From NCBI GenBank assembly GCA_026874595.1, contig CM049319.1, forward strand, positions 60,706,917-60,770,916: a stretch of 64,000 bases of DNA. The letters are read 5' to 3'. Below, piece after piece: positions 2,951-50,214 of the stretch (the first letter of the stretch is position 1; the number at the start of each line of letters is the position of its first letter). Both the position numbers and the translations under genes were made by a program. A model generated the notes under the pieces. That model saw only the letters and a list, made by a program, of their open reading frames with translations, ran no database searches and was not told the origin of the DNA. This stretch comes from Sipunculus nudus (lineage: Eukaryota > Annelida > Sipuncula > Golfingiida > Sipunculidae).

Positions 2951-5177
2951 CTATTTTTCTCTGTGGTTATACAGGTTTGATCTCGGATGATTAGCATTTT
3001 GTGGTTTCAGAAGAGGAGGCCCAAGAGCGTTACGCAGACGTAACCAGAATAATTGTCGTTCAGTCGCTGTTTTAGGCCACACAAGATATGTATTAGATTT
3101 TAGCAGGTAGTCAAGAGTGGCTGACCTACGTGTGGGCAGTTTTTCTGGTTTACCCATCACGATACAAATCACCTTGGCGTGCCTGGCATTTACATGTACC
3201 TTTGCAAAGTGAAGCTCCGTTTGAAAATACCTGCCTTTAAGAGCATTTCTGGATATCACCAACAGACAACTTTTGCTGTGTCGAAAAGCGTCAGAAATGT
3301 TTTCATCGATGCTAACGCCGATGGCAAAGTTCCTCTCATGCACACACAAACTGTAATCATGTCGTTTCTCAAGATTTCTCAAAACGAATTCAACAAACCA
3401 GTAATCGTTTGTATTGTAACACAGGAAAGCATCAAATATATAATCCTTCTCTGTCAGACCTGCTCGGAATTTTGTCAGTTGTCTGGCAAAATACCAAATG
3501 TACAACAGGCGCCATCTGTAGCGACAGACCAAACAACACACCATGCAAAATATAAGCGCACTTACGTATGTCAAAAATACTCTAACAACCAACTTATCGT
3601 CAAAGCCATGGGCGCACTCAGCTAAGAGTCTTTCTGTATTCAAGGTATAAATATCTAAAGGGATTGAAGCATCTGTGACACGACATTGAAATCCAATCAG
3701 TCGCACTGGCAGCATCTGTATTCTTCTGACCTTGTCAAGGTCACTGCAAGGACACTGGAGAGGGTTCCCGGTCATATCTATGGTTACATTTCTCGTGCGA
3801 CTGAACTGATTCCAATCGCGAATAAACGAGTCGTTCAAAGTGCCAATCTTATTATGACTAAGATTCAGCATTCGAAGGTGTTGCAGACTGCCAAAAGTAA
3901 AACGAACGTCATACAGGCCACATTGATATAATTTAAGACTGACGAGTCGAGTGAAATTTGTGAATGCAGCAGGATTAATTCCATTTCTTATGTAGTTTCT
4001 TGACAAATCTAAATCCTGCAATTTGTTTTCTGAAGAGAACCGAACATAAGGTAGAGTCCAATAATTTGGTATAACTCGGGTTACAGAGGATGCCCGTACG
4101 ACCTTAAGTTTTGGTGGTAAAAAGATGGTGTAATGTTCACTTTTATCGACTGCTTTATCATAAGAAGAACACACAGGCTTGACTTGGAAATTATTGTTGC
4201 ATGATAAACGTGCATTTGCCAGTCCCTTTCTCACATTATGACCAAAATCTTGATGACCGAGGTTTATATATGTCAAAGCACTCATCATTCGTATTTCTAT
4301 GAACAAGTCAATTAAACTGAATCCAAACAGCATATTATGGTTTAGATTTAGTGATTGTAAATGGAGAAAGTTAATTAGGACTCCCCGTCTTAATGCTATG
4401 ATCTGGTTTTGTGCAAGATTTAGAACCTGAACGCGCGTTCCGCGCAAGCATCGAAATATTGGTGGTTTTAGATCCCAGAATATTCCAGACATACCTCCTC
4501 TACACACTCTGTCCAATTTAAGAACAGCGAGTGGTGAGCCTTTAAGTCCACACAGCACTTGGAATTTAAGTACCGTCTCACTGGTTAGGTACCATTCATC
4601 CAGTTTCAGATATTGAAGTCGCTTAAGGGGCTCAAACACCTTTAATGGCATATCAACAGCAGGTAATAAGTTTTTAAGAGTTAACACAACGAGGTTTTTC
4701 AGACCGACGAAAGCGCCTTGCTCTACCTTACTAATTTTAAAGTTTTCCTCTATATTGAGAAGTTTCATCTTAGGCAACCATGCAAAACTGTCATTTTGTA
4801 ATTCAGTTAGTCTTGTTCTTGATATAAACAGACGCGTTGTATTTGGCCCGGATGCATTTCATTTGGTTTATGGAAATAATCCGTTTACCGTGACAATTTG
4901 CAGTTAAATCCCCTCTGTAGGTCGTCATTGTACACAAACATTCGTCTGGAAATTTAACGTTACCATAAAACGTAAATCCCCCATCTTCCTGATTGGTAGA
5001 GCCATTGTTAGTGTAGATATTTGAAATTCTTTGGTTACGGTTCGAGGTATTCGGTCCTCGAGCTCTTTTCGGTTTATTGATCTTTAGAGGATTTTCCTTA
5101 AATTCAAATGAAAACTCCGATACATTTATTTGTAAAAAAATTAAACAGACCAATAACGCTTTTGTTCGACGAACCAT
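2951..5177 (-). pseudogene. Toll-like receptor copy A, single frameshift
   Basis: An intronless TLR of the same design as copy B: a hydrophobic leader, about 50 polar residues, an LRR-NT cysteine region (CLC), LRRs, an LRR-CT (CPC...C), one membrane span and a full cytoplasmic TIR domain. The start at 5177 is chosen because it lines up with the starts of B, C and D and has the same context (gtgaaaATGG). One extra base near 4844-4852 (GGCCCGG here, GACCAG in B) shifts the frame within the N-terminal LRR cap; the span of 2227 nt is 3n+1. Everything after that, including TIR box 1 (FDAFLCY), the ERNFAIG loop and the FW box, stays open to the stop at 2951. In frame, an upstream ATG at 5252 would add 25 residues. 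It could be a recent pseudogene or a one-base assembly error of a live gene. Confidence 0.9.
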
Positions 5178-5506
5178 TTTCACTATATCTTCTTGTAGTG
5201 TTCCGTTGCCTCGGTCTGAGTTTAGGAAGTTATACAGCCGCACGAGATGCACGTTTATTTAAAACAAACCACTCCCCAATCTAGTATTTATCAACAGGCA
5301 ATCTACAATAGTATAATCATCCTTTATTTTTTGCCTCTACAAACAAGGAGCTATTTCTTTACTCAACAATTTGTTGATAGTACTTTAACTCGCTGCATAA
5401 TGTACAATCAACAAAAGTGGTTATTGGTTGTAGTTCTCACTGTTTTATTAAAAATCGTCCATGACGAGCTGGCACTCTATGACTAAAAAGCCTTTCTTTA
5501 CAGTAC

Positions 5507-5582
5507 AGTAATAATCATGCGATTGTTGTATACACGTCTGTGGTTGTCAATAGATTAAGTTACCGATATCTAATAAAAAAAT
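5507..5582. promoter_or_regulatory. Conserved upstream block, unit A
   Basis: A stretch of about 75 bp lies upstream of the receptor and occurs seven times in the window. Others are at 6112, 20406, 28708, 36318, 36930 and 50598. Landmarks are AATCATGCGATTGTTGTATA, GTGGTTGTCAAT and GATATCYAATAAA. Most copies include an ATCCAAT, which is an inverted CCAAT box relative to the receptor. Conservation could reflect only recent duplication, so a promoter role is inferred. Confidence 0.45.
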
Positions 5583-5594
5583 AAACACTCTAAA

Positions 5595-5835
5595 CATCTT
5601 CACTACTGATAGATCCCATTGTAAGTCTAGACATTTGAAACTCTATTGTTATAGTTCGAATTATTCGGTCTTCGAGTTTTTGTCCCTTGATTTTTAGAGG
5701 ATTTCCCTCAAATTCTCCTGAAAATACCGATACCGCTCTTGTTGGACGACCCATTTTCTCTATATTTTCATACAGTTATTCAGCTGCTTCGTTCTGAATT
5801 TAGGAAGTTATATTGCCGCACAAGATACACGCAAT
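5595..5835 (-). pseudogene. TLR 5'-end relic, unit A
   Basis: A second TLR start lies 0.5 kb upstream of copy A. The ATG at 5754 sits in CCCATTTTC on the plus strand, like the real starts. The reading begins MGRPTRA, then jumps to a stretch like FSGEFEGNPLKIK, the residues that follow the signal peptide in other copies. The hydrophobic signal core is deleted and the frame is lost after about 30 residues. Its 5' leader (ATATTGCCGCACAAGATACA on the plus strand) is still recognisable. No LRR or TIR sequence follows. Confidence 0.75.
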
Positions 5836-6111
5836 AATATACAAACAGCTCCGCAATCTAGTATTTATCAACAACCAATCTAGACCAATCTGGTATAATC
5901 AACCTTTATTCTATGTCTGTACACAAAACATTTGAAATTACTTTAAACAGCAGTGCCTTATGTGCACGAGTTTTTTTAAATAGTTATTGTGGACAATGAT
6001 CAAAGACCTTGCACAATGAACGTGCAACAAAAGTGGTCATTGTTTAAAGCTGTCATTGTTTTACGCGAGGCCTCAGTCATAAAGGAATGTACTAGTGCAT
6101 TTAAGCCTTTA

Positions 6112-6190
6112 GTCATAATCATGCGATCGTCGTGTACCTCTCTGTGGTAGTCAATTGATTAAGCTGACGATATCAAATAAACAATTCGGC
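6112..6190. promoter_or_regulatory. Conserved upstream block, relic of unit A
   Basis: The second copy of the upstream block in unit A (ATAATCATGCGATCGTCGTG, then GTAGTCAATTGATTAAG). It sits between the TLR relic and the plus-strand exon-like ORF at 6421, matching the layout of unit C. Confidence 0.45.
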
Positions 6191-6420
6191 ACTTTAATTC
6201 TATACGAGTGGCCGGTAATCTTAACACAATATGTCATAACGATACCGAATCAAAATTCTTTTTTTAGTTATTCAATTGCGATATAGGTAACTAGAAAAAC
6301 GCCCAAAGACAGCAGCATCGCATCAATGCATTCCCGTGTTTACACATTCTCATTGCTAAGATCACGCCGATATTTTCGACATGGGGTCAGGGACATCCGG
6401 GTTCAAAGTGTGTACGGAAA

Positions 6421-6486
6421 ATGGCAAGGCCCATAAGTGGTTTCAAGAAAATGAGAGAAATAAACCTGTCAGATGAAGTGATATGA
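6421..6486 (+). pseudogene. Divergent exon-like ORF, unit A copy
   Basis: A plus-strand ORF beginning MARPISGFKKMREINLS and ending at TGA after 21 codons. It is one of four related starts, one per TLR unit, pointing away from the receptor (others at 29429, 37246 and 51776). The shared pattern is roughly MAxPxxxFEKxRxxNLSG. The B copy is the longest with the best start context. I do not recognise the family. It looks like the first coding exon of a gene duplicated with the TLR, broken here by early divergence. Confidence 0.4.
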
Positions 6487-6599: not shown

Positions 6600-7962
6600 A
6601 ATCATGGTAATAAAGAAGGTCAATCTAACCAAAGGGCAATTGAACCATCTTATTGACTGATTCAGAGAAATCTTTGGCCAAACACTTAGAAAACACATCA
6701 AGTTGGGCAGATAGGATTCGAAGAACTGCGGTGTCCGCCTTGTCAAGTTGCCTCTGAAGACATGCATGGAAATTTAAGGTAATTAACAACTTAAAGCCAG
6801 CCATAACTTTATCTGTCTGGGAATAGAATCATTTTGTGGTATATGGCTACAGATTCACAAACCTTGAAGCTCTGACCAAAAAGTGCATGTATTAAGCAAA
6901 TATGAGTCGCAAAAACCATATCACATTTATTGGTGTTCCAGCTTAGCTTTCAGAGCCGAAAAGGATGGTTCCTTGAGAATCTGCATAGATCCAAAGAAAC
7001 TGAAATCAAGTCTTAAGAGATGTCCCCACAAAATTCCAACAGTGGAAGAGCTTAATCCAGAATTAGCTACAGCAAAAGTATTCAGAAAATTAGACACCAA
7101 AGCTGGATATTGGTCGATCCATTACAACAAAGAATGACAGCTTCTCACCAAGTATGGCACATCATTTGGTCGTTATTGTTTGTGTAGACTACTATTTGGA
7201 CTCAGCGTGTCACAAGACTTATTCCTGTCAAGAATGGACCAGATCTTAGAAACCTCATAGGTGTTGTGAGCATCGCAGACGATGCCTATGTGTATGGTGA
7301 GACAACAGCCGAATATGAAGCTAATCTGATACAGCTGATGGACCGAGCACTTGAAAATGGACTTGAATGTAACAGTGACGAATGCATAATCAAGCAACCG
7401 AGTATTTCTTTCTTCGGAAATATGTATACAAGTGGAGATATCAAACCAGATCCTGCCAAAGACATGCATAAGATGCCAACTGCTCAAAATCAGGAAGACG
7501 TATCTCGGATTCTAAGTCTAATGACTTATTTGAGTCAATTCATACCACATTATGCAAACAAGGCAAATACTCTCGGTTACCTCCTTAAAACGTATATACC
7601 TTGGACCTGGGATGCGTATTACCAGAAATTCTTTGACGAAATAAAGCAGACAGCCTCAGAGAAGGCGTGTCTGAAATATTACGACCCCGACACAAATGAG
7701 GTTGATGCTCCACAAAAGGGATTGGGAGCTGCCTTGATCAAGGAAGGTAGACCAATTGCCTTTGGTTCATAATCTTTGAATGTAAAATTTTGGCTGTGGT
7801 ACATAGTATATAAAGATACCATACCTATCTATACGGAAGATTCTTCACTGTTGCGACAGATTACAAACCTCTTGTTACTATTGTTACGGAACTTAATATC
7901 AACAGATCACGTAGTAGTGACCAACATAAATTTTGTAATAGAGATAAGAAAAAATCAGCTTC
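6600..7962 (+). pseudogene. Ty3/gypsy reverse transcriptase-RNase H fragment
   Basis: Plus-strand remains of a gypsy pol gene. From 6940 the reading shows an RT finger/palm stretch (DGSLRICIDPKKLK, then FRKLDTKAGYWSI), a YxDD-box remnant changed to IADDAYVYG near 7273, a thumb/connection stretch (YLSQFIPHYANKANTL) and the start of RNase H (GLGAALIKEGRPIAFGS). At least two stops (7135, 7258) interrupt it and the catalytic tyrosine is lost, so it is dead. Borders are uncertain. It abuts the LTR of the next element at 7963, which probably inserted into it. Confidence 0.8.
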
Positions 7963-9099: not shown

Positions 9100-10264
9100 T
9101 TTTTCAATAGTGGAGTAGTTTTTCTGGCTTGCATTAAACTTTCTTGAAAAAAAAAACTAATTGGATGATCGATGCCATCATTGCCATCACAGCACCAGTA
9201 GCAGTATCACTAGCATCTACAGATAACTTAACAGGTACAGAAAAGTCTGGAGCTACCAAAACTGGTGAACTTTGCAGGATTGCTTTCAAATTCTGAAATG
9301 CATTTTCACACTGAAAATTCCTCATAAAACGTTTGTTTCTTCTTTAAAAAATTAGTCAAAGGTTCAGCTACAGCAGAAAAATTTGGACAAAACTACCTGG
9401 AATATTGAGCCATACCGAGAAAACGCATAATTTGCTTTTATTGTTTTCTGGTCTAGAAAATGCAGAAATAGCACTTATTTTAGCATCAACAGGTTTTAAC
9501 TGACCCTGCCCTACAATATGACCCAAAAATGTTACCAGTGCATGACAAAACCCAGACTTTACTAAGTTGATGATCAGACATGCTTTACTGAGTCTTTCAA
9601 AGAGGTCGCGGAGATTTCGCAGATGTTACTCACAGGTGTCGCTGTACACGAAAAGGTCATCAATATATGCGTCGCAGCCCTGAATGTCCTTGATAACTAT
9701 ATGCATGAAGCGCTTGAACGTGGCTTGCGAGTTCTTCATGCCAAACGGCATAACTTTATACTGGTACAGTCCTTGCGGCGTCATAAATGCAGACACTTCT
9801 TGTGCTCGTTCTGTCAGCGGTACTTGCCAGAATCCTTTTAGCAAGTCAAACTTAAAGATATATATGTAGCTACCGACTCTATCAATACAATCATAGATCC
9901 TCGGAATCGGGAACGTGTCAGTGACAGAATTCAGTTTTTGATAATCTGTGCACATACGGTAACTTCCATCAGGTATTGGCATAAGAATACATAGTGAACT
10001 CCAGTTACTGTAACTAGGTTCAATAAAATCATTGTCCAGCAAATATTGAACCTCATCCTGCAGATACTTTTGCTTTTCTGGATTCAGTCTATAAGGATGC
10101 TGCTTGACTGCACTTGCTTCGCCAACATCGACGTCATGGCACAACATGTCAGTTCGCTTTGGAATGTCACTAAACAAATTTTCATAATTCCGCAGCAGGT
10201 TCTTGAGGTCTTCTTGTTGTTGTGCGGTAAGGTGTGACTGTTCGGCATCCAAGTTGTTAAGCAT
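9100..10264 (-). pseudogene. RT-RNase H of the Gmr1-like element
   Basis: From 10264 down to 9626 an open stretch of 212 codons shows a gypsy-type RT: a YRMCTDYQKLN finger motif, FKFDLLKGFWQVPL (motif A with the catalytic Asp), MPFGMKNSQATF (motif B) and AYIDDLFVYS (the YxDD box, intact). After frame breaks, RNase H follows near 9325-9134 (FSVPVKLSVDASDTATGAV, first catalytic Asp present). RNase H stops early and the thumb region contains stops, so the gene is dead though young. Confidence 0.88.
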
Positions 10265-10429
10265 GCCTGAATTTTTAGTGGTACTGTTCCACCTTGAATG
10301 GCTACATCACTTTTACAATCAGTATTAACTTTAACTGGGTCAGGGTCAGTTTTTACACAATTAACAGCAGTAACATTATATACAACATCCGATGTGCTAT
10401 TTCTTTCATAATATGGTTTCAACATGTTA

Positions 10430-12551: not shown

Positions 12552-12599
12552 AGATTTTTAATCAAAACAAGAAGGTATTTTTTTTATGCTTCAGAATAT

Positions 12600-13380: not shown

Positions 13381-13407
13381 GGAAAAAAATTTCCCATAAC
13401 ATCAATT

Positions 13408-13700: not shown

Positions 13701-13719
13701 TTAAATAATAATCATCAGA

Positions 13720-16700
13720 ACCAGTCCATAGATATATGCGTGTACATATTCTTCAACTATGTGATTGCAGGTGGTACCACCTATCTGGTCTACAACTAAG
13801 CTATCCAAGACGGATAAACATGCAAAATGTCAAGCCACATCAAACACATCAAGCCACTCCTGCGATATGAACGATTTTCATCCAAAGCAAACCGACGGAT
13901 TTACGCCACGCATAAACAATTCCAGATGGAACCACTAGTCTTTAGTACGAGACTGAGGTATCAAAATTTTATGGACATTCCTTATTTCAGGCCATCACGG
14001 CAAACTAATCCTGCGAAAAGGGCATCCACGTATTCAAGGAAAACGGGAAGGTAGAAGGTGCCCCTTGTCTGATGTAGGAAAAACTCTCCATGATCAAAGG
14101 ACATGCCAAATTTCAGACCCATACATGGAACCACTCCTGAGATATGAGTGATTTTTACCAAAAGCAAACGCATGGATGGGTGCCACGCAAATATGATTAC
14201 AAATGGCGCCACCAGTCCTGAAAACCAAATGGAGATACCAAAAATCTTTGGACATGCACACTTTCAGCGCAATACATTGAATCAATCAGTAAGACGAATA
14301 TTTAGCAAATGCATTGACGGACGCATGGCATGACAGTCTCGAGTACGAGATGCACAATTTCAGCCCAATATATTAAACCAGTCCTAAGATATCGGCTGTT
14401 CTCACTAAGACGCCCAGATTCATGTTGCGCAAAAAGGATTGCCGATGGCGCCACCACTCTTTGTTAGGCCTCAGTTCACATGTGACCCAATAAAAATGCT
14501 GGGTTTCGGAAAGATTGGTCCAAAGGTATCATAGCACTTCTCCGGAAACGGACATGGTGGCAGCGGCCGAACCCGCGTGAAAACATAGTATCCACAAACT
14601 GTTACGATAATAGTCTTTGTGTCTTCATTTCTATGCACATATTCAACGAGGTATCATTTTCTCCATCTTCCTGCAAACAAAGCTGTCCATGGGCCAAGCT
14701 TCATACCAGAAGACTGTGTTCTACCAGGTCGGTTTGGTAGTCTTTTCTTAAATATTGAACAAGATACCCCGTAATGAGGCCGAAATTATTTCGGCAATTC
14801 AAATCTGACGTAGCAAAGTAAACAGTTCACTGAAGTTTAAACTGTTCCAAAACGTATAAAAGAATATCACGTATATCGGAAACTAGATAAGCTTTCCAGC
14901 CTATATACATATCATTTATCATATGTTACAGCTTCAAAGAGCCAACTCGTATGGTAAAATGATCATGTTCAATCTCCCATAATTCAGGCAAAATCATTTA
15001 TTCCGAACTGTTTTAATAAACTTGAACAAGAATAACCTCAGAATCATTTTGATGCACAACTAAAAAACCTGGCACATTAGTTTGGGAGGACGATAATTGC
15101 CCTAGTCTGACACATCGCCTAGTTCAGATTTCCATGACTCTTCCAAAATAACTAAATCCGAACCATTCTTACACACTTAAGAGAATACTACCCAAAAATT
15201 ATACATGTGAAATGTTAAAAAAAATTGGTTGACATTTCTTCAGAGAAGATTTCTAAAAAATGTGGCCAAAAGAAGCCCAAATAACTAGTTTTCCTCCAAT
15301 AAAATATAGGTCGATGCAGGTTACGCCACAAAAACCTGTATTTCAAATATGATTCAGGTGATTTACCATTTGCATAAAAATTGGTCATGCAAGATTTTGC
15401 TCTTGCTAGGATTGTTATCTTAGTATGCTTACTTGGCCAAATGACAAACTGCTGCTTCCCCTAACTCGGCCAAATATCACGAAACAAGAGAGATTCGAAT
15501 AAACTTAATTGAGAGAGCTGGTTTCTTGAATCATTTCTGTGAAATATTAAACAATGTAGCTTAACAGTTTCAATGTTTACAAGGTTTCCCCGTAAAATGA
15601 AAGTCGACGTATGTGGCGCCACCACTCATTAACTCTCACAACGTTTGACATACATGTCAACTGCATGTTTGTTTAAATTTAGTGGAGCTAGCATGGGTTG
15701 ACGTACGGACGGTACCGGTGCATAAGCCCACACGTTCTCTAAACATCCCGGTGGGCAGTGACCCTCCCTCACCCCTCCCCCCCCCCCCCCTACGGGACGC
15801 TTTACGCCCATATCAAAATAAATACCGAAGAAAGATCTGGCTTCCTCGCCTATAGGTGAATCTATGCGTTATCAAATTTTTGTATCCTGATTTTATAACC
15901 TTCAGTGAGATTACACAGCTTATATTTCCCCTTTTGTACGGAATTCACATGTGACAGCAAGCCTAGCGGCTCTGTAGTGCTTCAATTAAAAAGATAATTT
16001 AAATAAACCTGAAATCTTAAACGGAATGCATATTAATAAACTGGGGCAATGTTATAGAATATTTGCATGCAACTTTACTAGGTGTGGTTTTGTGTTGTGC
16101 TTTGTAAACATTAACCGGTCCAATTCAGGCTTTTTATTTACATATATACATGTCATAAATACAAATGAACTTTCCCTAATTAACATTTTTTCAAAGCAAA
16201 CATTGAACATGTAATACGTGTATATTGTATTGTGAAAATTATAGCAACGACGTAACAACAATATGTACTATACGTTAGAGAATTTCCATGTATATGCCAG
16301 CACTTATGTGGCGCAATTGACCTATCCATGAACTCTATGCGACCTAAATCCCACATTCATTCAATGAATAAACATAAGCATGGGACTATGGAGCAACAAA
16401 TCAGGTGACCTCAATCATTGTATAGCGTCAAGCACCTGACAAAAACAAAATTTTGCATAATTTGACAGAGCTCTGTCAAACAGAACACGTGTAGTCTGTA
16501 AATACTACCAGTACCCATGTCGTCATGTTTCCTAGGATATTTTATTATACGAAGGAGACAGTATAAAAAGTGTCTATGCTATAGGTTGCGGGAGCCATTC
16601 CTCCGACTACCGAGTGAATAATCCAATATATATTGCAACACAGTTCATATATGACTGCAATATAGTAAACAATGGTCAGGTGATACCAGTTGATCAGTCA

Positions 16701-17813
16701 ATACGACGTCATGCGCCATCGCCCTTTGTGACATCATTTTAATGTTATAATCAGCTCTCGGTACCATGGGCAAGGAAGTCCATATGTGTAGGAGCGTTTT
16801 GGGGGCTCATTATAATAAAAAGTTAAAGGGTGGAGCATTTTGGCTGTGGTGGATAGTTCAATTAAGGTTTAACACATTATAGCGCTTTAACTCTACTTTA
16901 CACTAAATATTTTACTAAAATCAATATTTTCGTTTTTAATAATCAAAACTAGAAATTTGCATTCCAACGAATGCAGGCCTCCGCCATATTGGCGGTCTAT
17001 AATGTGAGGACTATTCAACCCGTGTATTCATTCACTTATTAGCCCATATCCCCATTGTGTCATTCGTGCATATGTGCATAAGATTTGATAGCAAGTCCTT
17101 AAACAAAGTCACTTAGTCAGTATAGAACCCAAGCGTAATAAGGAGACGGATAAAGTGATGCGCTGGTAAAATTTTATAGCCACCGCAAACCTTCGTTTCT
17201 GTAGATTATGTGCTTCCCCAAGGACTGGCAGTATGATAAGTTTCGGCTTAAAATAATCATTTAAGCGATATAGCACTTAATTGCTGTGTAGCTTTTTCAT
17301 TTGTGGGGACAAATCCTAAAACATTTCATCTCCATCGGCAAGACACTGCCATTTTATTCGCACACGCCAGTCCGCTGAGCATGAAAAACACCGTTCAGAA
17401 TGGATATATGCAATCGCAAAGGGTTAATTTGAACCCTGCCCCCACCCCCACACCCCACACACACAAAATAAAATAAAAACACAATGGGGCTATTATGGAA
17501 ATCTGCTATCTAATTAACGATTTTGGGAATAAGGTCTAGGCAAAATATAAATATCAGGTGCAAATCTGTAACCTAGGATTAATATTGTGCATAACCTATA
17601 GAAAATCTGCCATTTTGGAGATCTGTCGCAAACAGAAGATGGCATGAGAAAGAAAAAATAAATGTAGGTCCATCAACATAATATATATAACCCAAATATC
17701 AAATAAAAACTCAACCCCCATAAGTCTTCTCCTGCAACGCTGGGGATGCTTAAATATACTAGCATTTCTGCAGTTACAGAATCAAGTTATATCACATATA
17801 CAAAACGTTAAGT
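13720..17813. repeat. 3' flank of TLR unit B (segmental duplication)
   Basis: About 4 kb of non-coding DNA matches the flanks of C and D nearly end to end. Sub-parts in order are a GGCGCCACC-type satellite-like array (13720-14560); a GCCGAAATTATTTCGGC palindrome near 14780; unique-looking DNA to 16260; an insertion (16315-16856); and the receptor-proximal flank. Short C-rich runs lie near 15778 and 17440. No gene was found. Confidence 0.8.
16315..16856. repeat. Short copy of the 53.1-55.2 kb repeat element
   Basis: Both ends match the repeat at 53100-55180. The left part shares ATTCAATNAATAAACAT and CCATTCCTCCGACTACCGAG. The right part shares GTGTAGGAGCGTTTTG followed by a GTGGAGCAT/GCGGAGCAT run. 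The middle of the long copy, which holds the GGCGCCACC array, is absent here. C and D lack this insert, so it arrived or was lost after duplication. Confidence 0.6.
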
Positions 17814-20033
17814 CTATTTGTCTCTGTGGATATACAGGTTGGATCTGGGATGATTAGCATTTTGTGGTTTCAGAAGTGGAGGTCCGAGAGCATTACGCAG
17901 ACGTAACCAGAATAATTGTCGTTCAGCAGCTGTTTTGGGCCACACAAGATACGTGTTACATTTCAGCAGGTAGTCAAGAGTGGCTGACTTACTTGTGGGC
18001 AGTTTTTCTGGTTTACCCAACACGATACAAATCACCTTGGCGTGCCTAGCATTGTGTTGTTCTTTTGCAAAGTGAAGCTCCGTTTGGAAATACCTACCTT
18101 TCAGCGCGTTTCTGGATATCACCAACAGACAACTTTTGCTGTGGCGGAAGGCGTCAGAAATGTTTTCATCAATGCTAACGCCGATGGCAAAGTTCCTCTC
18201 ATGCACACACAAACTGTAATCATGCTGTTCCTCAAGATTTCTTAAAACAAATTCAACAAACCAGTAATCATTTGTATTGTAACACAGAAAAGCATCAAAT
18301 ATATAATCCTTCTCTGTCTGACCTGCTCGGAATTTTGTCAGTTGTCTGGCAAAATACCAAATGTACAACAGGCGCCATCTGTAGCGACAGACCAAACAAC
18401 ACAATATGCAAAATGTAAGCACACTTACATATGTCAAAAATACTTTAACAACCAATTTGTCGTCAAAGCCATGGGCACACTCAGCCAAGAGTTTGTCTGT
18501 ATTCAAGGTATAAATATCTACAGGGTCTGAAGCATCTGTGACACGACATTGAAATCCAATAAGCCGCACTGGCAACATCTGTATTCTTCTACTCTTGTCA
18601 AGGTCACTGCAAGGACACTGGAGAGGGTTCCCGGTCATAACTATGGTTAAGTTCCTCGTGCGACTGAACTGATTCCATTCCCGAATAACCGAGTCGTTCA
18701 AAGTGACAATCTTGTTATGACTAAGATCCAACATTCGAAGGTGTTTCATACTGCCGAAAGTGAAACATACGTCTTTCAGGCCACACTTACGTAACTGTAG
18801 ACTGATGAGTCGAGTGAAATTTGTGAATGCAGCAGGATTAATACCATTTAAAATGTAGTTTTCAGAAAAATTTAAATGCTGCAATTTGTTTTCCGGAGAG
18901 AACCGAACATAAGGTAAAGACCGATAATAGGGTATAACTTGGGTTACATAGGCTGCCGATATTACTTCCAGCTTTGGAGGTAAAAATATGGTGTGATGTT
19001 TACTTTTATCGACTGCTTTATCAGAACACACAGGCCTGAATTGGAAATTCCTCAGGCTTGATAACTGTTTGTTTGCAAGTCGCCATCTCCATTTATGACC
19101 GAAATCTTGATGACGGATGTTCAAATATGTCAAAGCACTCATCAGTCGTATTTCTATGAACAAGTCAATTAAACTGAATCCAAACAGCATATTATGACTT
19201 AGATTAAGTGATTTTAAATGGAGAAAGTTTATCAGGACTCCGCGTCTTAATGCTATTATCTGGTTTCTCACAAGATCTAGTTTCTGAACGGGTGTGCCGC
19301 GTAAGCATCTAAATGTAGGTGGTTTTATATCCCAGAATATTCCAGCCATTCCGCCGCGACAAACTCTGTCCAGTTTTAGAACAGTGACTGGTGAACCCTG
19401 AAGTTCACAGAGCACTTGTAACTTAAGTGCCGTCTCACTGGTAAGGCCCCATTTACCCAAGTTCAGATATTGAAGTCGCTTTAGGGGCTCAAGCACGTTT
19501 AGCGGCATATCAATAGTAGGAATTAGATGTTTAAGAGATAACCGAACAAGGTTTATCAGACCGACAAAAGCTCCTTCTTCTACCTTACTAATTTTCAAGT
19601 TTTCCGCAATATTAAGATGTTTCAACTTAGGCAACCATGCAAAACTGTCATTTTGTAATTCAGTAAGTCTTGTTCTTGATATATAAAGACGCGTTGTATT
19701 TGACCAGATGCATTTCATTTGGTTTATGGAATTAATTCGTTTACCGTGACAGTTTGCAGTCAAATCCCCTCTGTAGATCGTCATTTTACACAAACATTCA
19801 GCTGGATATTTAACGTTACCATAAAACGTCAATCCCTCATCTTCCTGATTGGTAGTGCCATTGTTAGTGTAGACATTTGAAATTCTTTGGTTACGGTTCG
19901 AGGTATCCGGTCTTCGAGCTCTTTTCTGTCCCTTGATCTGTAGAGGATTTCCCTCAATTTCGAGAGAAATCTCCGATAAGGTTGTTTGTAAGAAAATTAT
20001 CCAGACCAATAACGCTTTTGTTCGACGACCCAT
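17814..20033 (-). CDS. Toll-like receptor copy B, intact
   Basis: A single-exon type I membrane receptor of 739 aa and the only unbroken TLR here. Residues 7-19 are a signal-peptide core. Residues 20-78 are polar. The LRR-NT cysteines are C80, C82, C95 and C108. LRRs run to about 465 (LKSLNLSHNML, LRMLDLSHNKI). LRR-CT cysteines are C473, C475, C496 and C519, a single cluster. The membrane span is about 527-549 with a basic stop (RYRWR). The TIR domain is 576-715, with box 1 YIFDAFLCY at 577-585, a BB loop ERNFAIG at 612-618 and box 3 FW at 708-709. TLRs sense microbial or damage ligands with the ectodomain and recruit TIR adaptors. The start at 20033 has a strong context (gtgaaaATGGG); the frame is open 22 codons further but has no ATG. 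The BB loop lacks the usual Asp and Pro, so adaptor choice may be unusual. Confidence 0.95.
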   Translation of the reverse strand: MGRRTKALLVWIIFLQTTLSEISLEIEGNPLQIKGQKRARRPDTSNRNQRISNVYTNNGTTNQEDEGLTFYGNVKYPAECLCKMTIYRGDLTANCHGKRINSINQMKCIWSNTTRLYISRTRLTELQNDSFAWLPKLKHLNIAENLKISKVEEGAFVGLINLVRLSLKHLIPTIDMPLNVLEPLKRLQYLNLGKWGLTSETALKLQVLCELQGSPVTVLKLDRVCRGGMAGIFWDIKPPTFRCLRGTPVQKLDLVRNQIIALRRGVLINFLHLKSLNLSHNMLFGFSLIDLFIEIRLMSALTYLNIRHQDFGHKWRWRLANKQLSSLRNFQFRPVCSDKAVDKSKHHTIFLPPKLEVISAAYVTQVIPYYRSLPYVRFSPENKLQHLNFSENYILNGINPAAFTNFTRLISLQLRKCGLKDVCFTFGSMKHLRMLDLSHNKIVTLNDSVIREWNQFSRTRNLTIVMTGNPLQCPCSDLDKSRRIQMLPVRLIGFQCRVTDASDPVDIYTLNTDKLLAECAHGFDDKLVVKVFLTYVSVLTFCILCCLVCRYRWRLLYIWYFARQLTKFRAGQTEKDYIFDAFLCYNTNDYWFVEFVLRNLEEQHDYSLCVHERNFAIGVSIDENISDAFRHSKSCLLVISRNALKGRYFQTELHFAKEQHNARHAKVICIVLGKPEKLPTSKSATLDYLLKCNTYLVWPKTAAERQLFWLRLRNALGPPLLKPQNANHPRSNLYIHRDK

Positions 20034-21840: not shown

Positions 21841-22309
21841 AGAGAGTTGGTTACCAATTTTCATTGTAATTTGGCAACATGAGTTCACTTCAAGGTTCAT
21901 GCATTGTGAAGCAGTGGGTGTTCAGCTCTCAAGTGAACCTCCCACTTCCAGGTTCACAGACCAGCTCTGGCCTCAACACAAAATTCCTTATGCACCAAGA
22001 CACAAAAAACATTACAGCCTCACTTTGAGTTGTGTGATTACTGGGGTATAAGAAAGGACATGTGACTGGGAGAAAAGGGGATTTTAACCCAGCAGAAAAT
22101 AGAAAGAAGGGGACAACCTTTTAAAACCCAGTGAATACTAAGGGCATTCAAAAGCTGCACCTGCCATGGACCACTGCTCTTAGTCAAAACTTGATAAGTG
22201 ATTTAAGGTTACAGGTTACTGGCCCGGGGAAGTACAGGGCAGGGTAAAAAAAAACCGAATCACATGTAAATTACATTAATATGTTTGTTTTCAGCAGTTA
22301 ATATGTGAC

Positions 22310-22572
22310 ACATGCAATATAAAACAGACCACTGCGCAATCAAGTATTTGTCAATAGGCAATGTACGATGGTATGATCATCCTTTATTCCTTGTCTGTAC
22401 CGAAAAAAAGCTGAAGTTACTTTAATAGCAGTGTCTTATGTGCACACGTTTTTAAAATACTTTACATATAGCATTTGTGGATAGTGATTAAAGACCCTGC
22501 ACAATGTACAAGCAACAAAAGTGGTTATTGATAAAAGCTGTCATTGTTCACGGGAGGCCTCAAGTATTAAGG
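22310..22572. repeat. Promoter-side relic of a second TLR, unit B
   Basis: This matches the DNA upstream of the TLR relics in A (5840-6080) and C (36690-36915). Landmarks are a CGCAATCNAGTATTT-like run, TTAATAGCAGTG.CTTA, GATAGTGATTAAAGACCCTG and GCAACAAAAGTGGTTATTG. The N-terminal coding part itself is gone in B. Homology stops abruptly at about 22572 and resumes at about 28684. Confidence 0.6.
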
Positions 22573-28310: not shown

Positions 28311-28707
28311 CTTAGAGTGAAAAAAATTCCTTACATTTCCCTTTTTTTATCAAATGGTTAATGGGTTACCTGAACAGGATGAAAGGGGTTATTTTGGTGA
28401 TATACCAGTGAGTGGAAATACAGGTAGTACAGATTTACCTGTTTTTACTTGTATATACCTTAGTTACATACATATCGAACCAGGTATGTAGAAAATAAAT
28501 AAAATAACATGAAGGACATATACCTGACAGTAAAAGCTGAAAATTTCACAAAGATACCATTAACGGTTACTGAGTTGATGTCTCTTATATAGATTCATGT
28601 CAAAATGTGGAAAAAATGCAAAATAAATCTGAACAGTAGGAGTGTGACAATCCACAGGCTAATCTGAACAGTAAAGGGTTAAGCAGGGTACTACTTTAAA
28701 AAAGTCA

Positions 28708-28790
28708 TAATTATGCAAATGTAGTACACATCTCTGTGGTTGTCAATTGATTAAGCTCCCGATATCCAATGAACAATAAAAATACTGTAC
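28708..28790. promoter_or_regulatory. Conserved upstream block, far side of unit B
   Basis: Fourth of the seven blocks (GTGGTTGTCAATTGATTAAG, then CTCCCGATATCCAATGAACA). It resumes the unit B upstream homology after the 6.1-kb insertion. Confidence 0.45.
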
Positions 28791-28835
28791 AATTATTGAT
28801 TCATGATCGGTAAACTTAACCCAAGTTGGTATAAT

Positions 28836-29281
28836 GATACCGAATCAAACTTTTCTTAACACATTCGCTGCCAATGACGTGTATACCCGTCATTTATTAC
28901 GTATATTCACGCCATTTTCAGCAGATATTCTCATAAATTTATCTATAAATTCTTTGCAGATGAGTAGCAGTCCATTTATAAAATAGTCTCGCAGTATGAA
29001 ATTGAATTATTTGTAATTCAACAGTGCACTCCATCATTCGAAAGCAGATAAGATGTGTAGATGGTGACAAAATCCACGGCTCCGGTCCATTGCCATAAAA
29101 TAACTTTACGACGCGCTTCAGTTATAAGTCGATTCCTTGTAAAAATAGTACTTTGAATCAAACGAAAAGGAGGATCGTAAAGATATGTAGCTAGTTTAAT
29201 ATTAGAGTATGTTTTGGACACTTATTTAAGACAGACCCTGTTGGGAGGCTGAGGTGTGATACAAAATCAAACTTTTCTTAA
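28836..29281. mobile_element. 422-bp insertion with direct repeats and a piggyBac-like edge
   Basis: A 24-bp direct repeat with two mismatches (GATACCGAATCAAACTTTTC at 28836, repeated at 29258) brackets about 400 bp that are absent from A and C. The left edge reads TTAA followed by CACATTCGCTGCCAATGACG and a TATACCCGTCA half-palindrome, the style of piggyBac-type ends with a TTAA target. No matching right terminal repeat was found. It may be a truncated element, with the 24-bp repeat formed by a separate duplication. Confidence 0.5.
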
Positions 29282-36392: not shown

Positions 36393-36408
36393 AAACTGTA
36401 AAAAATCT

Positions 36409-36690
36409 TTACTGCTGATCGATCCCATTGTTAGTGTAGACATCTGAAATTCTTTTGTTATAGTTCGAAATATGGTCTTCGAGTTTTCTCTCCCTTGATT
36501 TTAGAGGAATTACCTCAAATTCTCCTGAAAACTCCGATACCGTTATTTGTATGAAAATTATCCAGACCAAGAACATTTTTGTTCGACGACTCATTTCCTC
36601 TATTTCTTCTTACACTGATTCGCTGCCTCGTTCTGAATTAAGGAAGTTATATTGCCGAACAAGATGCACGCAATCAAAAACAAACGCTCC
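36409..36690 (-). pseudogene. TLR 5'-end relic, unit C
   Basis: From an ATG at 36594 the reading gives MSRRTKMFLVWIIFIQITVS, a complete TLR signal peptide, then FSGEFEVIPLKS and ISDVYTNNGIDQQ, and stops at 61 codons before the LRR-NT cysteines. Its 5' leader continues to about 36690. It is the counterpart of 5595-5835, so the ancestral unit already held a full receptor plus a second 5' end about 0.6 kb upstream. Confidence 0.82.
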
Positions 36691-36929
36691 GCAATCTAGA
36701 ATTTTTTTTATCAACAGCCAATCTAGAATGATATAATCATCCTTTATTCTATGTCTGTACAGAAAACAGTTGAAATCAATTTAAACAGCAGTGCCATACA
36801 TGCATCAGTTTTTTAAATAATTCTGTGGATAGTGATTAAAGACCCTGCACAATTTACGAGCAACAAAAATGGTTATTGGTTAAAGTTGTCATTGTTTTAT
36901 GCGAGGCCTCATTTTAATAATGCCTATAG

Positions 36930-37005
36930 TCATAATCATGTTGTGTACATCTCTGTGATTGTCAATTGATTAAGCTCCCGATATCCAATAAACAATAAAG
37001 CACTG
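36930..37005. promoter_or_regulatory. Conserved upstream block, relic of unit C
   Basis: Sixth upstream block (GTGATTGTCAATTGATTAAG, then CTCCCGATATCCAATAAACA), between the TLR relic and the plus-strand ORF at 37246. Confidence 0.45.
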
Positions 37006-37245
37006 TAATTTTTCCACGAGTGACCGGTAATCTTAACCCTAGATGTCATAACGATACCGAATCAAAATTCTTTTTCTTAATTATTCAATTTTGATATAGG
37101 TAACTATAAATACACCAAAAGACAGCAGCATCGCATCAATGCAGTCCTGTGTTTACACATTCTCATTGCTAAGGTCACGCCGATATTTTCGACATGCGGT
37201 CAGTGACATCAGGGTTCAAAGTGTGTTCAGAAAATTGCTACGCCC

Positions 37246-37353
37246 ATGGGTGGTTTAGAGAAAATGAGAGAAATAAACCTGTCAGGGTTAGAAGAACTAC
37301 TAGGAGTTTCCTTGGAGCACATCCAAATCCTCAAATTACAGTACGATTCGTGA
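37246..37353 (+). CDS. Divergent exon-like ORF, unit C copy
   Basis: A 35-codon plus-strand ORF, MGGLEKMREINLSGLEELLG and on. The first ATG of the B copy is TTG here, so the start is the second in-frame Met. It keeps the EK-R-NLSG core and adds a Leu/Glu-rich helix-like tail. A candidate downstream exon lies at 38451. Function unknown. Confidence 0.35.
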   Translation: MGGLEKMREINLSGLEELLGVSLEHIQILKLQYDS

Positions 37354-42297: not shown

Positions 42298-42465
42298 ACT
42301 GTCAACGAATGCCCTTTTGTCATTCCTGGCACTTCTCTTTACTTTTCTGTCTTTTGCCCTGTATTCTGCTTCTGCTCTTGCCAGTAACCGAGGTGACTTG
42401 GTGCTCAGAACTTTCTCCTTACAGTGTCTTCTCTCGTCTATTAGTTTCAGTGTTTCTGGTGTTAT

Positions 42466-44511: not shown

Positions 44512-47500
44512 CATGACAGATAGATGGACATATGGTTGTCTATGATATAGTAATCTAAGATGGATACATTTCAAAATTGATGCTGATATATGGTTCAAAC
44601 CCACATACATGTTCCATTTTCACCAAAAACAGATCTAAAGATGGACAGGAGATGAAATTAATTCTAAGTGGCCCAAGCTGTCTTGTATACAAGATATACC
44701 GTTCCAATATCTATGGAAATGCACATTTTCAGGTAAATACATCATACAAAAACAATACGTGTATATTCTATTAAAACGAAAAGGTAGGTGGCGCCATTTA
44801 TCTGTTCTATGATAGATCTGCGCTATGTGAAAGGTTTGTAGGTGGCACCAGTTGGCTAGTGTACAAGTGGGAAGTATCCAGATCTGTGGACTTGTGAAAT
44901 TTCAGGCTGATACAATAAACCAGTCCTTTGATATATGCGTCAACGTATTCTTCAAATACGTGATTGCAGGCGGCGCTACCTATCTGCTCTACAACAAAGC
45001 TATTCAAGACGGATAATAATGCACAATGTCAAGACACATCAAACGCATCCATCCACTCCTGAGATATGTGTGATTTTTACCAAAAGCAAACGCATGGATG
45101 AGTGCAACGCAAATACGATTACGAATGGCGTCACCAGTCTTAAAACCAGATGGAGATATCGAAAATCTTTGACATGCACACTTTCAGCCCAATACATTGA
45201 ATCAATCACTAAGACGAACAAATAGCAAATGCATGGACGGACGCCACACGAAAATGATTGTAGATAGCGCTGGCAGTCTCGAGTACGAGATGCTCAATTT
45301 TAGCCCAATATATTAAACCACGCCTATGATATTGGCTGTTCTAACTAAGACCCAGATTCATACTGCGCAAAAAGGATTGCAGATGGCGCCACGAATCGTT
45401 GTTAGGCCCATGTTCACATGTGACCCAATAATAATGCTGGGTTTCGGGAAAGATTGGTCGAAAGGTATCATAGCACTTCTCCGGAAATGAACACGGTGGC
45501 AGCGGCCAAACCCACGTGAAAACATAGCATCCTCAAAACTGTTACAATAATAGTCTTTGTGTCTTCATTTCAATTCACATATTCAACCAGGTATCATTTT
45601 CTCGATCTTGCTGCAAACAAAGCTGTCCGTGGGCTAAGCTTCACACCGGGGGACTGTGTTCTACCAGGTCGGTTTGGTAGTCTTTTCTTAATTATTGAAC
45701 AAGATACCACGTAATGAGGCCGAAATCATATCGGCAATTCAAATCGGACGTAGCAAAGTGAACAGTTCACAGAAGATGAAACTGTCCCAAATCGTATAGT
45801 AGAATATCACGTACATTGAAAACTAGATAATCTAGATCTGGCACATTAGTTTGGCAGGAGAAGACGATTGTAGCCCTAGTCTGATACACGGCCAACTTCA
45901 GATTTCCATGACTCTTCCAAAAATAACCAAATCCGGACCATTCTTACACACTTAAAAGAATACTACCCCAAAATTATTCATGTGAAATGTTAAAAATTTG
46001 GGTTGACATTTCTTCAGAGAGGATCTTTAAAATATGTGGCTAAAAGAAGCCCAAATAATTAGTTTTCCCCAATAGAAAATAGGTCGATGCAGGTTACGCC
46101 ACCAAAACCTCTATTTCAAATATGATTCAGGTGATTTACCATTTGCATAAAAATTGGTCATGCAAGATTTTGCTCTTGGTAGGATTCTTTTCTTAGTGTA
46201 CTTACTTGGCCAATTGACAAACTGCTCCTTCCCCTCACTCGCCCATATAACCTAATCGAAAAGATTCGAATAAACTTAACTGAAAGAGCTTTTTTCTTGA
46301 ATCATTTCTGTGAAATATTAAACAATCTAGTTTAACATTTTCAATGTTTACAAGGTTTCCCCGTAAAATGAAAGTCGACGTAGGTGGCGCCACAAATCAT
46401 TAAATCTCACCACGTTTGACATACATGTAAGTGCATATTTGTTTAAATTTAGTGGAGCTAGCATGGGTTGACGTACGGACGGTACCGGCGCATAAGCGCA
46501 CACGCTCTCTAAACATCCTGGTGGGCAGTGACCCTCCCAACCCCCCACCCCATGGGACGCTTAACGCCCATATAAAAATAAATACCTAAGAAACATCTGG
46601 CTTCGTCGCCTATAGGTAATTCTATACGGTATCCGATTTTTGTATACTGATACCTTCAGTGAGATTTCACAGCTTTAATTTTCCCTTTTGTACGGAATTC
46701 ACATGTGACAGCAAGCCTAGCGGCTCTGTAGTGCTTCAATTAAAAAGATCATTTAAAAAAACCTGAAATCTTAAACGGAATGCATATTAATAAACTGGGG
46801 CAATGTTATAGAATATTTGCATGCAACTTTACTAGGTGTGGTTTTTGTGTTGTGCTTTGTAAACATTAACCGGTCCAATTCAGGCTCTTTATTCACATAT
46901 ATACATGTAATAAATACATATGAACTTTCCCTAATTAACATTTTTTCAAAGCAAACCTTGATCATGTAATACTATATATTGTATTGTGAAAATTATAGCA
47001 ACGACGTAACAACAAGATGTACTATACGTTAGAGAATTTCCATGTATAGCCAGCACTTATGTGGCGCAATTAAGGTTTAACACATTATAGCGCTTTAACT
47101 CTACTTTACACTATATATATTACTAAAATCAATATTTTCGTTTTTAATAATCAAAACTAGAAATTTGCATTCCAACGAATGCAGGCCTCCGCCATATTGA
47201 CGGTCTATAATGTGAGGACTATGCAATCCGTGTATTCATTCACTTATTGGCCCATATCCCCAGTGTCAATCGTGCATATGTGCATAAGATTTGATAGCAA
47301 GTCCTTAAACAAAGTCTCTTAGTCAGTATAGAACCCTAGCGTAATAAGGAGACGGATAAAGTGATGCGCTGGTAAAATTTGATAGCCACCGCAAACCTTC
47401 TTTTCTTTAGATTATGTGCTTCCCCAAGGACTGGCAGTATGATAAGTTTCGGCATAAAATAATCATTTTGGCGATATAGCACTTAATTGCTGTGTAGCTG

Positions 47501-47991
47501 TTTTCATTTGTGGGGACAAATCCTAAAATATTTCGTCTCCATCGGCAAGACACTGCCACCTCGTTCGCACACGTGAGTCCGCTGAGCATGAAAAACACCG
47601 TTCAAAATGGATATATGCAATCGCAAAGGATAATTGGACCCCCCCCCCCCCCCCGAAAAAAAAAAACGCAACTGAGCTATAATGGGAATCTGCTATCTAG
47701 TGAACGACCTTGGGGGTAAGGTCTAGGCAAAATATAAATATCAGGTGCAAATCTGTGGCCTAAGATTAATATTGTGCATAAGCTATAGAAAATCTGCCCT
47801 TTTGAAGGTCTGTCGCAAACAGAAAATGGCATGAGAAAGAAAAAATAAATGTTATACATAATATTTATAACCAAAATATCAAATAAACTCAACCCCAATA
47901 AGTCTTCCCCTACTACGCCGGGGATGCTTAAATATATTAGTATTTCTCCAGTAACAGAATCCAGTCATATCACATATACAAAACATTCAGT
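44512..47991. repeat. 3' flank of TLR unit D (segmental duplication)
   Basis: Matches the B and C flanks with the same order of parts: a GGCGCCACC-type array (44785-45400), a GCCGAAATCATATCGGC palindrome near 45720, a C-rich tract near 47640 and the receptor-proximal flank. It lacks the 16315-16856 insert of B and the 33211 duplication of C. No gene was found. Confidence 0.8.
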
Positions 47992-48081
47992 CTATTTTTC
48001 TCTGTGGTTAAACAGGTTGGATCTGGGAAGATTAGCATCTTGTGGTTTCAGAAGAGGAGGCCCAAGAGCGTTTCGCAGACG

Positions 48082-50214
48082 TTACCAGAATAATTGTCGT
48101 TCAGCATCTGTTTTAGGCCACACAAGATACGTGTTCCGTTTCAGCAGGTAGTCAAGAGTGGCTGACCTACGTGTGGGCAGTTTCTCTGGTTTACCCAACA
48201 CGATACAAATCACCTTGGCGTGCCTGGCATTGTGCTGTTCTTTTGCAAAGTGAAGCTCCGTTTGGAAATACCTGCCTTTTAGAGCGTTTCTGGATATCAC
48301 CAACAAACAACTTTTGCTGTGGCGAAAAGCGTCAGAAATGTTTTCATCTATGCTAACGCCGATGGCAAAGTTCCTCTCATGCACACACAAACTGTAATCA
48401 TGCTGTTCCTCAAGATTTCTTAAAACAAATTCAACAAACCAGTAATCATTTGTATTGTAACACAGAAAAGCATCAAATATATAATCCTTCTCTATCAGAC
48501 CTGCTGCAAATTTTGTCAGTTGTCTGGCGAAATACCAAATGTACAACAGGCGCCATCTGTAGCGACAGACAAGACAACACAACATGCAAAATATAAGCAC
48601 ACTTACATATGTCAAAAATACTTTAACAACCAACTTGTCGTCAAAGCCATGGGCGCACTCGGCTAATAGTTTGTCTGTATTCAAGGTATAAACATCTAAA
48701 GGGATTGAAGCATCTGTGACACGACATTGAAATCCAATAAGCCGCACTGGCAACATCTGTATTCTTCTGACCCTGTCAAGGTCACTGCAAGGACATTGGA
48801 GAGGATTCCCGGTCATATCTATGGTTACATTTCTCGTGCGACTGAACTGATTCCAATCGCGAATAACCGAGTCGTTCAAAGTGTCAATCTTATTGTGACT
48901 AAGATCCAACATCCGAAGGAAGTCGAGACTGCCGAAAGTGAAACGGACTCCTTCCAGGCCACAGTGGTTTAATTTTAGACTGACGAGTCGAGTGAAATTT
49001 GTGAATGCAGCAGAATTAATTTCACTTACAATGTAGTTCTTTGAAAAATCTAAATGCTGCAATTTGTTTTTCGGAGAGAACCGAACGTAAGGTAGAGTCC
49101 AATAATATGGTATAACTTGAGTTACAGAGGATGCCGATACGACCTTCAGTTTTGGAGGTAAAAAGATGGTGTAATGTTCACTTTTATCGACTGCTTTATC
49201 ATCATCAGAACACACAGGCCTGCTTTGGAAATGTTTGGGGCATGATAAACGTGTGTTTGCTAGTCCCTCTCTCCGATTATGACCAAAATCTTGATGACGG
49301 ATGTTTATATATGTCATAGCACTCATCATTCGTATTTCTATTAATAAGTCAATTAAACTGAATCCAAACAGCATATTATGACTTAGATTCAGTGATTTTA
49401 AATGTAGAAAGTTAATCAAGACTCCCCGTCTTAATGCTATGATCTGGTTTTGCGCCAGATCTAGTCTCTGAACGGGTGTTCCGCGTAAACAACTAAATAT
49501 TGGTGGTTTAATTTCCCAGAATAATCCAAACATTCCGCCGTGACAAACTTTGTGCAGATTTAGAACAGCGACTGGTGAACCTTGAAGTCCACACAACACT
49601 TTGAACTTAAGTGCCGTCTCACTGGTAAGGAACCATTTATCCAAGTTCAGATATTGAAGTCCCTTTAGGGGCTCAAACACCTTTAAAGGCATATCAATAG
49701 CAGGTAATAAATTTTTAAGAGTTAACCAAACAAGGTTTTTCAGACCGACGAAAGCGCCTTCTTCTACCTTACTAATTTTCAAGTTGTTCTCCATATGAAG
49801 AAGTTTTAACTCAGGCAACCATGCAAAACTGTCATTTTTTAATTCTTTAATTCTTGTTCTTGATATATAAAGACCCGTTGTATTTGACCAGATGCACTTG
49901 ATCTGGCTTGTAGAAATTATTAGTTTACTCTGACAATTTGCATTCAGATTCCCTCTGTAGATCCGCATTGTACACAAACATTTAGCTGGATATTCAAAGT
50001 TACCATAAAACTTCAATCCCCCATCTGCCTGATTAGTAGACCAATTGTTATTGTAGCCATTTGAAACTCTTTGGCTATGGTTCGAGGTATTCGGTCTTCG
50101 AGGTCTTTTCTTTCTACTGATATGTAGAGGATTTCTCTCAAATTCTCCTGAAAATTGCGATACAGCTATTTGTAAGAAAATTATCCAGACCAATAACACT
50201 TTTGTTCGACCCAT
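48082..50214 (-). CDS. Toll-like receptor copy D, C-terminal truncation
   Basis: An intronless TLR of 710 aa with signal peptide, LRR ectodomain, LRR-CT, membrane span and TIR. The start at 50214 is homologous to those of A-C; upstream the frame is open but without ATG. A TTA-to-TAA change right after the FW of TIR box 3 ends the protein. The lost frame remains open for 29 more codons to a TAG at 47992-47994, so this is a fresh point mutation in a 740-aa gene. Box 1 (FDAFLCY), the ERNFAIG loop and FW are kept. The final TIR helix and tail are missing, so signalling is doubtful. The ectodomain is closer to A than to B or C. Confidence 0.93.
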   Translation of the reverse strand: MGRTKVLLVWIIFLQIAVSQFSGEFERNPLHISRKKRPRRPNTSNHSQRVSNGYNNNWSTNQADGGLKFYGNFEYPAKCLCTMRIYRGNLNANCQSKLIISTSQIKCIWSNTTGLYISRTRIKELKNDSFAWLPELKLLHMENNLKISKVEEGAFVGLKNLVWLTLKNLLPAIDMPLKVFEPLKGLQYLNLDKWFLTSETALKFKVLCGLQGSPVAVLNLHKVCHGGMFGLFWEIKPPIFSCLRGTPVQRLDLAQNQIIALRRGVLINFLHLKSLNLSHNMLFGFSLIDLLIEIRMMSAMTYINIRHQDFGHNRREGLANTRLSCPKHFQSRPVCSDDDKAVDKSEHYTIFLPPKLKVVSASSVTQVIPYYWTLPYVRFSPKNKLQHLDFSKNYIVSEINSAAFTNFTRLVSLKLNHCGLEGVRFTFGSLDFLRMLDLSHNKIDTLNDSVIRDWNQFSRTRNVTIDMTGNPLQCPCSDLDRVRRIQMLPVRLIGFQCRVTDASIPLDVYTLNTDKLLAECAHGFDDKLVVKVFLTYVSVLIFCMLCCLVCRYRWRLLYIWYFARQLTKFAAGLIEKDYIFDAFLCYNTNDYWFVEFVLRNLEEQHDYSLCVHERNFAIGVSIDENISDAFRHSKSCLLVISRNALKGRYFQTELHFAKEQHNARHAKVICIVLGKPEKLPTRRSATLDYLLKRNTYLVWPKTDAERQLFW

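Follow-up and report, generated by a model that had tools for sequence, protein, structure and literature searches.

In the parts of the literature on which we draw here, three Toll-like receptor (TLR) systems provide the closest points of comparison. The Pacific oyster possesses 83 TLRs, with 57/83 situated in tandem arrays and 9/83 carrying frameshifts, and one tandem TLR displays positive selection at ectodomain sites (PMC4346834). In mammals, gene conversion between TLR1 and TLR6 has homogenised the C-terminal LRRs, the cap, the transmembrane (TM) segment and most of the TIR domain, with divergence at the N-terminus (PMC2077338). Sea urchin TLRs have undergone a large expansion in one lineage, with positive selection on individual residues (PMC5660111). 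Herein, we describe a tandem array of four TLR copies (A to D) in the sipunculan worm Sipunculus nudus, contained in a 64,000-nucleotide stretch of GenBank assembly GCA_026874595.1 (contig CM049319.1, positions 60,706,917 to 60,770,916 of the forward strand; hereafter, the window), in which only copy B is intact and the copies form a mosaic of exchanged segments.

The locus resembles the TLRs of the Pacific oyster in its tandem arrangement, in its frameshifted members and in the positive selection on its ectodomains; it differs in that 3/4 linked copies are broken, and in its segment exchange, which is not met in the part of the oyster account used here (PMC4346834). As for mammalian TLR1/TLR6, same-strand neighbours have swapped segments such that trees conflict along the gene; however, the clearest coding tract in the worm lies in the ectodomain, and one of the partners is now broken (PMC2077338). 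Expansion and positively selected residues are likewise shared with the sea urchin family, in contrast to the large size of which only four genes are present in this window (PMC5660111). A literature search on TLR gene conversion in bivalves or molluscs yielded none by title, which does not prove that no such case exists. The array adds one case to a known kind, i.e., TLR birth and death with segment exchange.

Stop-to-stop frames, their translations, tblastn of the copies against the window, and Pfam all identified the same four coding frames on the minus strand, each embedded in a duplicated unit of ~6-7 kb delimited by self-BLAST:

2951..5177, minus strand: TLR copy A, frameshifted by one inserted nucleotide within 4844-4852
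17814..20033, minus strand: TLR copy B, intact, a single exon encoding 739 aa
34268..35968, minus strand: TLR copy C, with a TGA, a 28-nt deletion and a ~873-bp deletion
47992..50214, minus strand: TLR copy D, with a TAA right after the box-3 FW
484-6472: duplicated unit of A
13719-20573: duplicated unit of B
30504-37285: duplicated unit of C
44513-50762: duplicated unit of D

The start codons lie at 5177 (A), 20033 (B), 35968 (C) and 50214 (D), separated by 14856 (A-B), 15935 (B-C) and 14246 (C-D) bases. An original prediction made from the sequence alone had proposed four single-exon TLRs on one strand, with starts 14-16 kb apart and a sole intact gene, all of which holds. Its several-kilobase duplicated unit is also real; however, the 15-kb period is not that unit, as homology covers 6-7 kb only and much of each spacer is without a match to the other units. 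The mosaic structure, the 5' relics and the second deletion in C, all detailed below, had escaped it.

Matches to both LRR and TIR Pfam models were above cut-off in A, B and D; the two frame pieces of C matched LRR models only, with no Pfam match to a TIR domain. LRR_8 (PF13855) was detected in B with an E-value of 6e-24 and exceeded its cut-off in A, C and D too, while both PF13676 (E-value 1e-11 in B) and PF01582 were above cut-off in A, B and D. The best match of the TIR domain among solved structures was the TIR domain of TLR1 (E-value 9e-20). By eye, B displays a signal peptide, LRRNT, LRRs, one LRRCT, a putative TM segment (a hydrophobic stretch near codons 528-550) and a TIR domain, all within one unbroken coding frame of 739 codons. 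The single LRRCT corresponds to one CxC...C...C cluster ahead of the TM segment, also read by eye, as the Pfam matches include no LRRCT model. A single LRRCT adjoining the membrane is how V-type/scc (single cysteine cluster) TLRs are defined, in the part of the source drawn on (PMC8609888). In the BB loop of the TIR domain (17814-18320 in B), A, B and D all carry RNFAIG compared to RNFVPG in TLR1, i.e., the proline of TLR1 is replaced by isoleucine in all three TIR-bearing copies, despite strong constraint on this domain. The equivalent proline in TLR2 (P681) functions in MyD88 recruitment. An AlphaFold2 model of B, built on an alignment of the copies from the window itself, had a mean pLDDT of 27.8 and was not used.

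As had been predicted, each of the three broken copies is broken differently. In A, an extra base lies between the codon ending at 4845 and the codon starting at 4843. The surrounding sequence reads CCGGGCC, has two substitutions next to the insertion and is not a long homopolymer; downstream of the insertion, 630 codons remain open through the LRRs, TM segment and TIR domain. In C, codon 234 (35267) is a TGA, at a position where the other copies have a tryptophan codon. The nonsense codon and TIR deletion that had been proposed for this copy are both present, albeit with two separate deletions having been merged into one: a 28-nt deletion at 34291/34290 and, at 34268/34267, one that measures ~873 bp against B (both lengths taken from the alignment), the latter of which takes away the TIR domain and the sequence that follows. 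An LRRCT cysteine of C is also gone (C496Y). In D, codon 710 (48082) is a TAA, with the next 29 codons open up to the natural end at 47992; the part beyond the TAA corresponds to what comes after "lfw" in the alignment with TLR1. Copy B carries no lesion. Separately, the 3' flank of C contains a segment of ~160 bp twice (33211-33372 and 34105-34266, 89.6% identical), reflecting a local duplication within this unit.

Alternatively, the array could be an artefact of assembly or base calling, with either one locus having been duplicated falsely or single-base errors mimicking inactivation. The lesion of A is indeed a single base and that of D a single substitution; moreover, haplotype switching in the assembly could generate a tract of ~2% divergence such as those described below. 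Against this, C carries a stop as well as two deletions, the insertion in A sits outside any long homopolymer and beside two substitutions, and the window has no N bases. The flanks also differ by ~5-30% beyond the exchange tracts. Divergence is highest in the 3' flank of A, for which BLAST pieces show 70-80% identity to the other copies; those of B, C and D differ by ~5-16% in most aligned windows outside these tracts, with that of B far more different at its outer end. Because the flanks have diverged and the spacers differ, four distinct loci are likelier than one locus duplicated by the assembler; on these comparisons, a single mis-assembled locus posing as four units is disfavoured, and we consider the artefact explanation as a whole improbable. 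An origin as processed (retro) pseudogenes does not fit, since promoters and flanks are common to the units.

The array is a mosaic of exchanged segments. Between B positions 20510 and 18330, 108 sites are informative among all four copies, of which 4 support AB|CD, 27 support AC|BD and 77 support AD|BC. These are not evenly distributed: the signal breaks at B 19930/19907, with counts for the three respective groupings of 2, 20 and 4 before this point and 2, 7 and 73 after it, a contrast matched in 0/2000 shuffles and identifying a segment exchange. Two tracts stand out:

18713..19930 (B coordinates), minus strand: exchange tract between B and C, 95-98% identical, spanning ectodomain codons ~35-440
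15945..16991 (B coordinates), minus strand: exchange tract between B and D in the 3' flank, a low-divergence stretch

The B-C tract covers ~1.2 kb, including the site of the TGA in C; the best 500-column stretch between these copies is 1.6% divergent, compared to a mean of 12.5% (0/1000 shuffles). For B-D, the best 500 aligned columns are 2.4% divergent, compared to a mean of 12.2% (0/1000 shuffles). Groupings thus change with the region, with A and C together in the 5' region, B and C in the ectodomain tract, and B and D in the 3'-flank tract. The likeness of B and C is not due to constraint, because synonymous sites follow the same pattern, with a synonymous divergence (dS) across the ectodomain of 0.076 for B-C and 0.22-0.28 for the five remaining pairs. 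The pairs A-D (6.0%) and A-B (6.4%; 0/1000 shuffles each) also have stretches of low divergence across the LRRCT-TM-TIR portion, explicable at least partly by the strong constraint on it. A further low stretch near the 5' end was detected for A-C (7.4%; 2/1000 shuffles), and the scan for C-D gave 30/1000. On the direction of the B-C exchange, the distances conflict: over codons 1-230, B and C are nearer D by synonymous distances, and nearer A by nonsynonymous distances.

Both gene conversion and unequal recombination are possible as the means of exchange. The pseudogenes associated with bird antibody genes, which act as sequence donors, offer a parallel for a more specific scheme, in which broken copies such as C serve as a reservoir that feeds ectodomain sequence into B by gene conversion. 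If true, dead genes would go on diversifying a living immune receptor; we regard this scheme as highly improbable.

The original prediction had proposed separate estimates of omega (dN/dS) for the ectodomain and TIR domain. For these, codons that contained a gap or a stop, or whose columns were non-contiguous, were dropped, leaving 737 of 739 codons in A, 737 in B, 563 in C and 734 in D; all site and branch tests were performed on four sequences, three of them broken. Omega was 0.48 over codons 30-520 (omega = 1 rejected, p = 1e-8) versus 0.20 over the TM segment and TIR domain (p = 6e-9). Within codons 28-412, taken as the exchange tract for site models (the identity profile places its edges nearer 35 and 440), a single topology applies and model M2a outperforms M1a, with 4.8% of codons at an omega of 5.7 (p = 2.7e-4). 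Extension to codons 28-527, which crosses the tract edge, assigns 6.6% of codons an omega of 4.0 (p = 5e-4). Posterior probabilities exceeded 0.5 at 14/385 codons, including 164 and 251 in LxxLxL strands (by eye), as well as 315, 317, 327 and 332 in a variable stretch. Some ectodomain codons are under diversifying selection, and the TIR domain is conserved.

Fast birth and death, in which copies arise and die rapidly, had been proposed for this family; its first half is not supported. Pairwise dS is 0.21-0.27 for all pairs except B-C (0.08), and the B-C value is lowered by segment exchange, as it tracks the exchanged tract; there is thus no young duplicate in the window. The divergence of the A 3' flank also counts against rapid birth. 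In favour of a fast turnover, the broken copies together with a set of relic 5' ends indicate losses at more than one time. On balance, we consider rapid turnover doubtful. In the sea urchin TLR family, too, the share of pseudogenes is high. The relics and related remnants are as follows:

5615..6292, minus strand: relic A', a truncated TLR 5' end (promoter-like region plus N-terminal codons) that adjoins the promoter of A
36412..37105, minus strand: relic C', a truncated TLR 5' end like A', upstream of C
22307..22562, minus strand: remnant resembling a promoter, upstream of B; identity to the promoters of TLR genes and relics is 72-75%
28703..28859, minus strand: second promoter-like remnant upstream of B, 74-80% identical to gene and relic promoters

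The N-terminal codons of the relics, detected by tblastn, occupy 5615-5836 (A') and 36412-36669 (C'), and pieces at 29258-30167, following the second remnant, show homology to the flank upstream of C. In a FastTree phylogeny of the six promoter regions, relics A' and C' form one group (support 1.0) and genes A and C another (0.986), due to which the relic looks older than the A-C split. The junctions at which the two relics give way to the adjacent promoters are also alike by eye, with a common ATCAG word. At least one further ancestral TLR copy has been lost at this array. A dimeric origin, [A B][C D], prompted by the likeness of A and C in the 5' region, was not adopted, as no 3' flank has diverged further than that of A, and the promoter grouping of B with D is unsupported (0.096).

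The second half of the proposed scheme, that the lesions are few, distinct and recent, fares better: they are few and distinct in every copy, and recent in A and probably for the TGA of C, with a weaker case for D and the rest of C. On the terminal branch of A, omega is 0.36 for codons 30-520 and 0.19 for the TM segment and TIR domain (omega = 1 rejected, p ~3e-5 each). If this branch had been wholly neutral, 14.0 in-frame stops would be expected; 0 were seen, limiting the neutral share to at most 0.21 (95%). Copy A was therefore inactivated late, having been constrained for at least ~4/5 of its branch. As the TGA of C lies inside the exchange tract and B has no stop there, this lesion probably postdates the B-C exchange, unless the site was skipped.

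This timing also bears on whether the lesions are segregating null alleles, i.e., common variants in a population whose haplotypes differ in which copies remain intact, a state compatible with the history favoured here. The otherwise open frames of A and D, the constraint on the A branch almost to the present, and the probable youth of the C TGA relative to the exchange all lean in this direction. Nothing direct speaks against it, though the large deletion in C lowers the odds of an intact C allele. We hold segregating null alleles to be a tentative but serious possibility.

Truncated copies might instead be in use, with C encoding a secreted ectodomain fragment and D a membrane decoy with a shortened TIR domain. 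Single-exon genes escape the exon-junction-dependent decay of transcripts with early stops, the D stop keeps the sequence through FW and loses only the part after it, and omega for the TM segment and TIR domain of D is 0.28 (omega = 1 rejected, p = 0.043). However, this constraint is an average that takes in the period preceding the stop, the product of C would be 233 aa without a membrane anchor, and that of A would end shortly past the LRRNT. A function for these truncated products is thus improbable as well.

We place a probability of roughly 0.8 on the account in which the array is the animal's own tandem cluster of single-exon TLRs (one LRRCT, by eye), with old births, segment exchange, diversification and independent breakage. 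The births are old, and of the deaths at least that of A is recent, with the exchange falling in between. A 6-7 kb unit was duplicated long ago, giving rise to at least four genes as well as at least one copy that now persists as 5' relics. The units then swapped segments, by gene conversion or unequal recombination. Selection held the TIR domain nearly fixed and diversified some ectodomain positions, as would fit copies that recognised different microbial ligands. Finally, A, C and D were broken independently (A late, and C probably acquiring its nonsense codon after the exchange with B), and within the window a complete receptor remains only at B. The array may now be in a phase of loss, or its lesions may segregate as null alleles.

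Several observations weigh against this account. For D, 8.1 stops would be expected and 1 is seen, which bounds the neutral share only at 0.58 or less, and its ectodomain omega of 0.66 does not differ from 1 (p = 0.12). Over codons 28-231 of D, unique changes comprise 29 nonsynonymous and 5 synonymous; omega is 1.18 in this block compared to 0.39 on the other branches (p = 0.014; p = 0.68 against 1), which fits either selection or relaxation, the block having been singled out among 19 lineage-by-block cells from only four sequences. For C, the stop count is uninformative (2.1 expected, 1 seen), and its ectodomain omega of 0.45 does not differ from 1 (p = 0.10). Beyond the tract, C gives an impression of greater decay: its codons 413-566 carry 8 nonsynonymous and 5 synonymous unique changes, loss of the LRRCT cysteine among them, and omega over codons 413-527 is 0.81, with no difference from the other copies (p = 0.23). 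Given this 8:5 ratio beyond the tract, loss of the TIR domain may be the older event, and C may have been dead before its core was exchanged. Lastly, the lesions could be polymorphic or sequencing errors.

Outside the TLR units, the A-B and C-D spacers contain retrotransposon fragments:

9368-13752, minus strand, and 6868-7772, plus strand: LTR (long terminal repeat)-type retrotransposon fragments in the A-B spacer, RVT_1 above cut-off
41405-43134, minus strand: LINE (long interspersed nuclear element)-like fragment lying between units C and D where the sequence is richer in GC, with an RVT_1 match above cut-off

In the A-B spacer, rve and RT_RNaseH_2 matches were below their cut-offs, and a zinc-knuckle-like motif was noted by eye at 13408-13752. 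The LINE-like fragment has an endonuclease match below cut-off; its reverse-transcriptase piece gave 3 pattern matches in viral_contigs, 0 of which were confirmed. A search with B returned no pattern match in viral_contigs and 5 pattern matches in genome_contigs (0 confirmed), and neither Rfam at gathering scores nor a tRNA scan of the window produced a match. To the right of the array, 52907-55187 is a scrambled region that shares 65-79% identity with the distal part of the TLR units' 3' flank and contains a 145-bp tandem duplication; it is perhaps an older, deleted unit, and no TLR match was found to its right by tblastn at E-values up to 1. A minisatellite at 62258-63750 has a period of ~160 bp, with ~5.6 copies over 62875-63749 and related copies to the left.

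Ultimately, one compact locus allows a temporal order to be given to duplication, exchange, diversification by selection and the death of genes. A TLR array may thus look like fast birth and death even though its births are old. Should the lesions prove to segregate, the locus would constitute a natural test of whether the loss of single TLR copies carries any cost.

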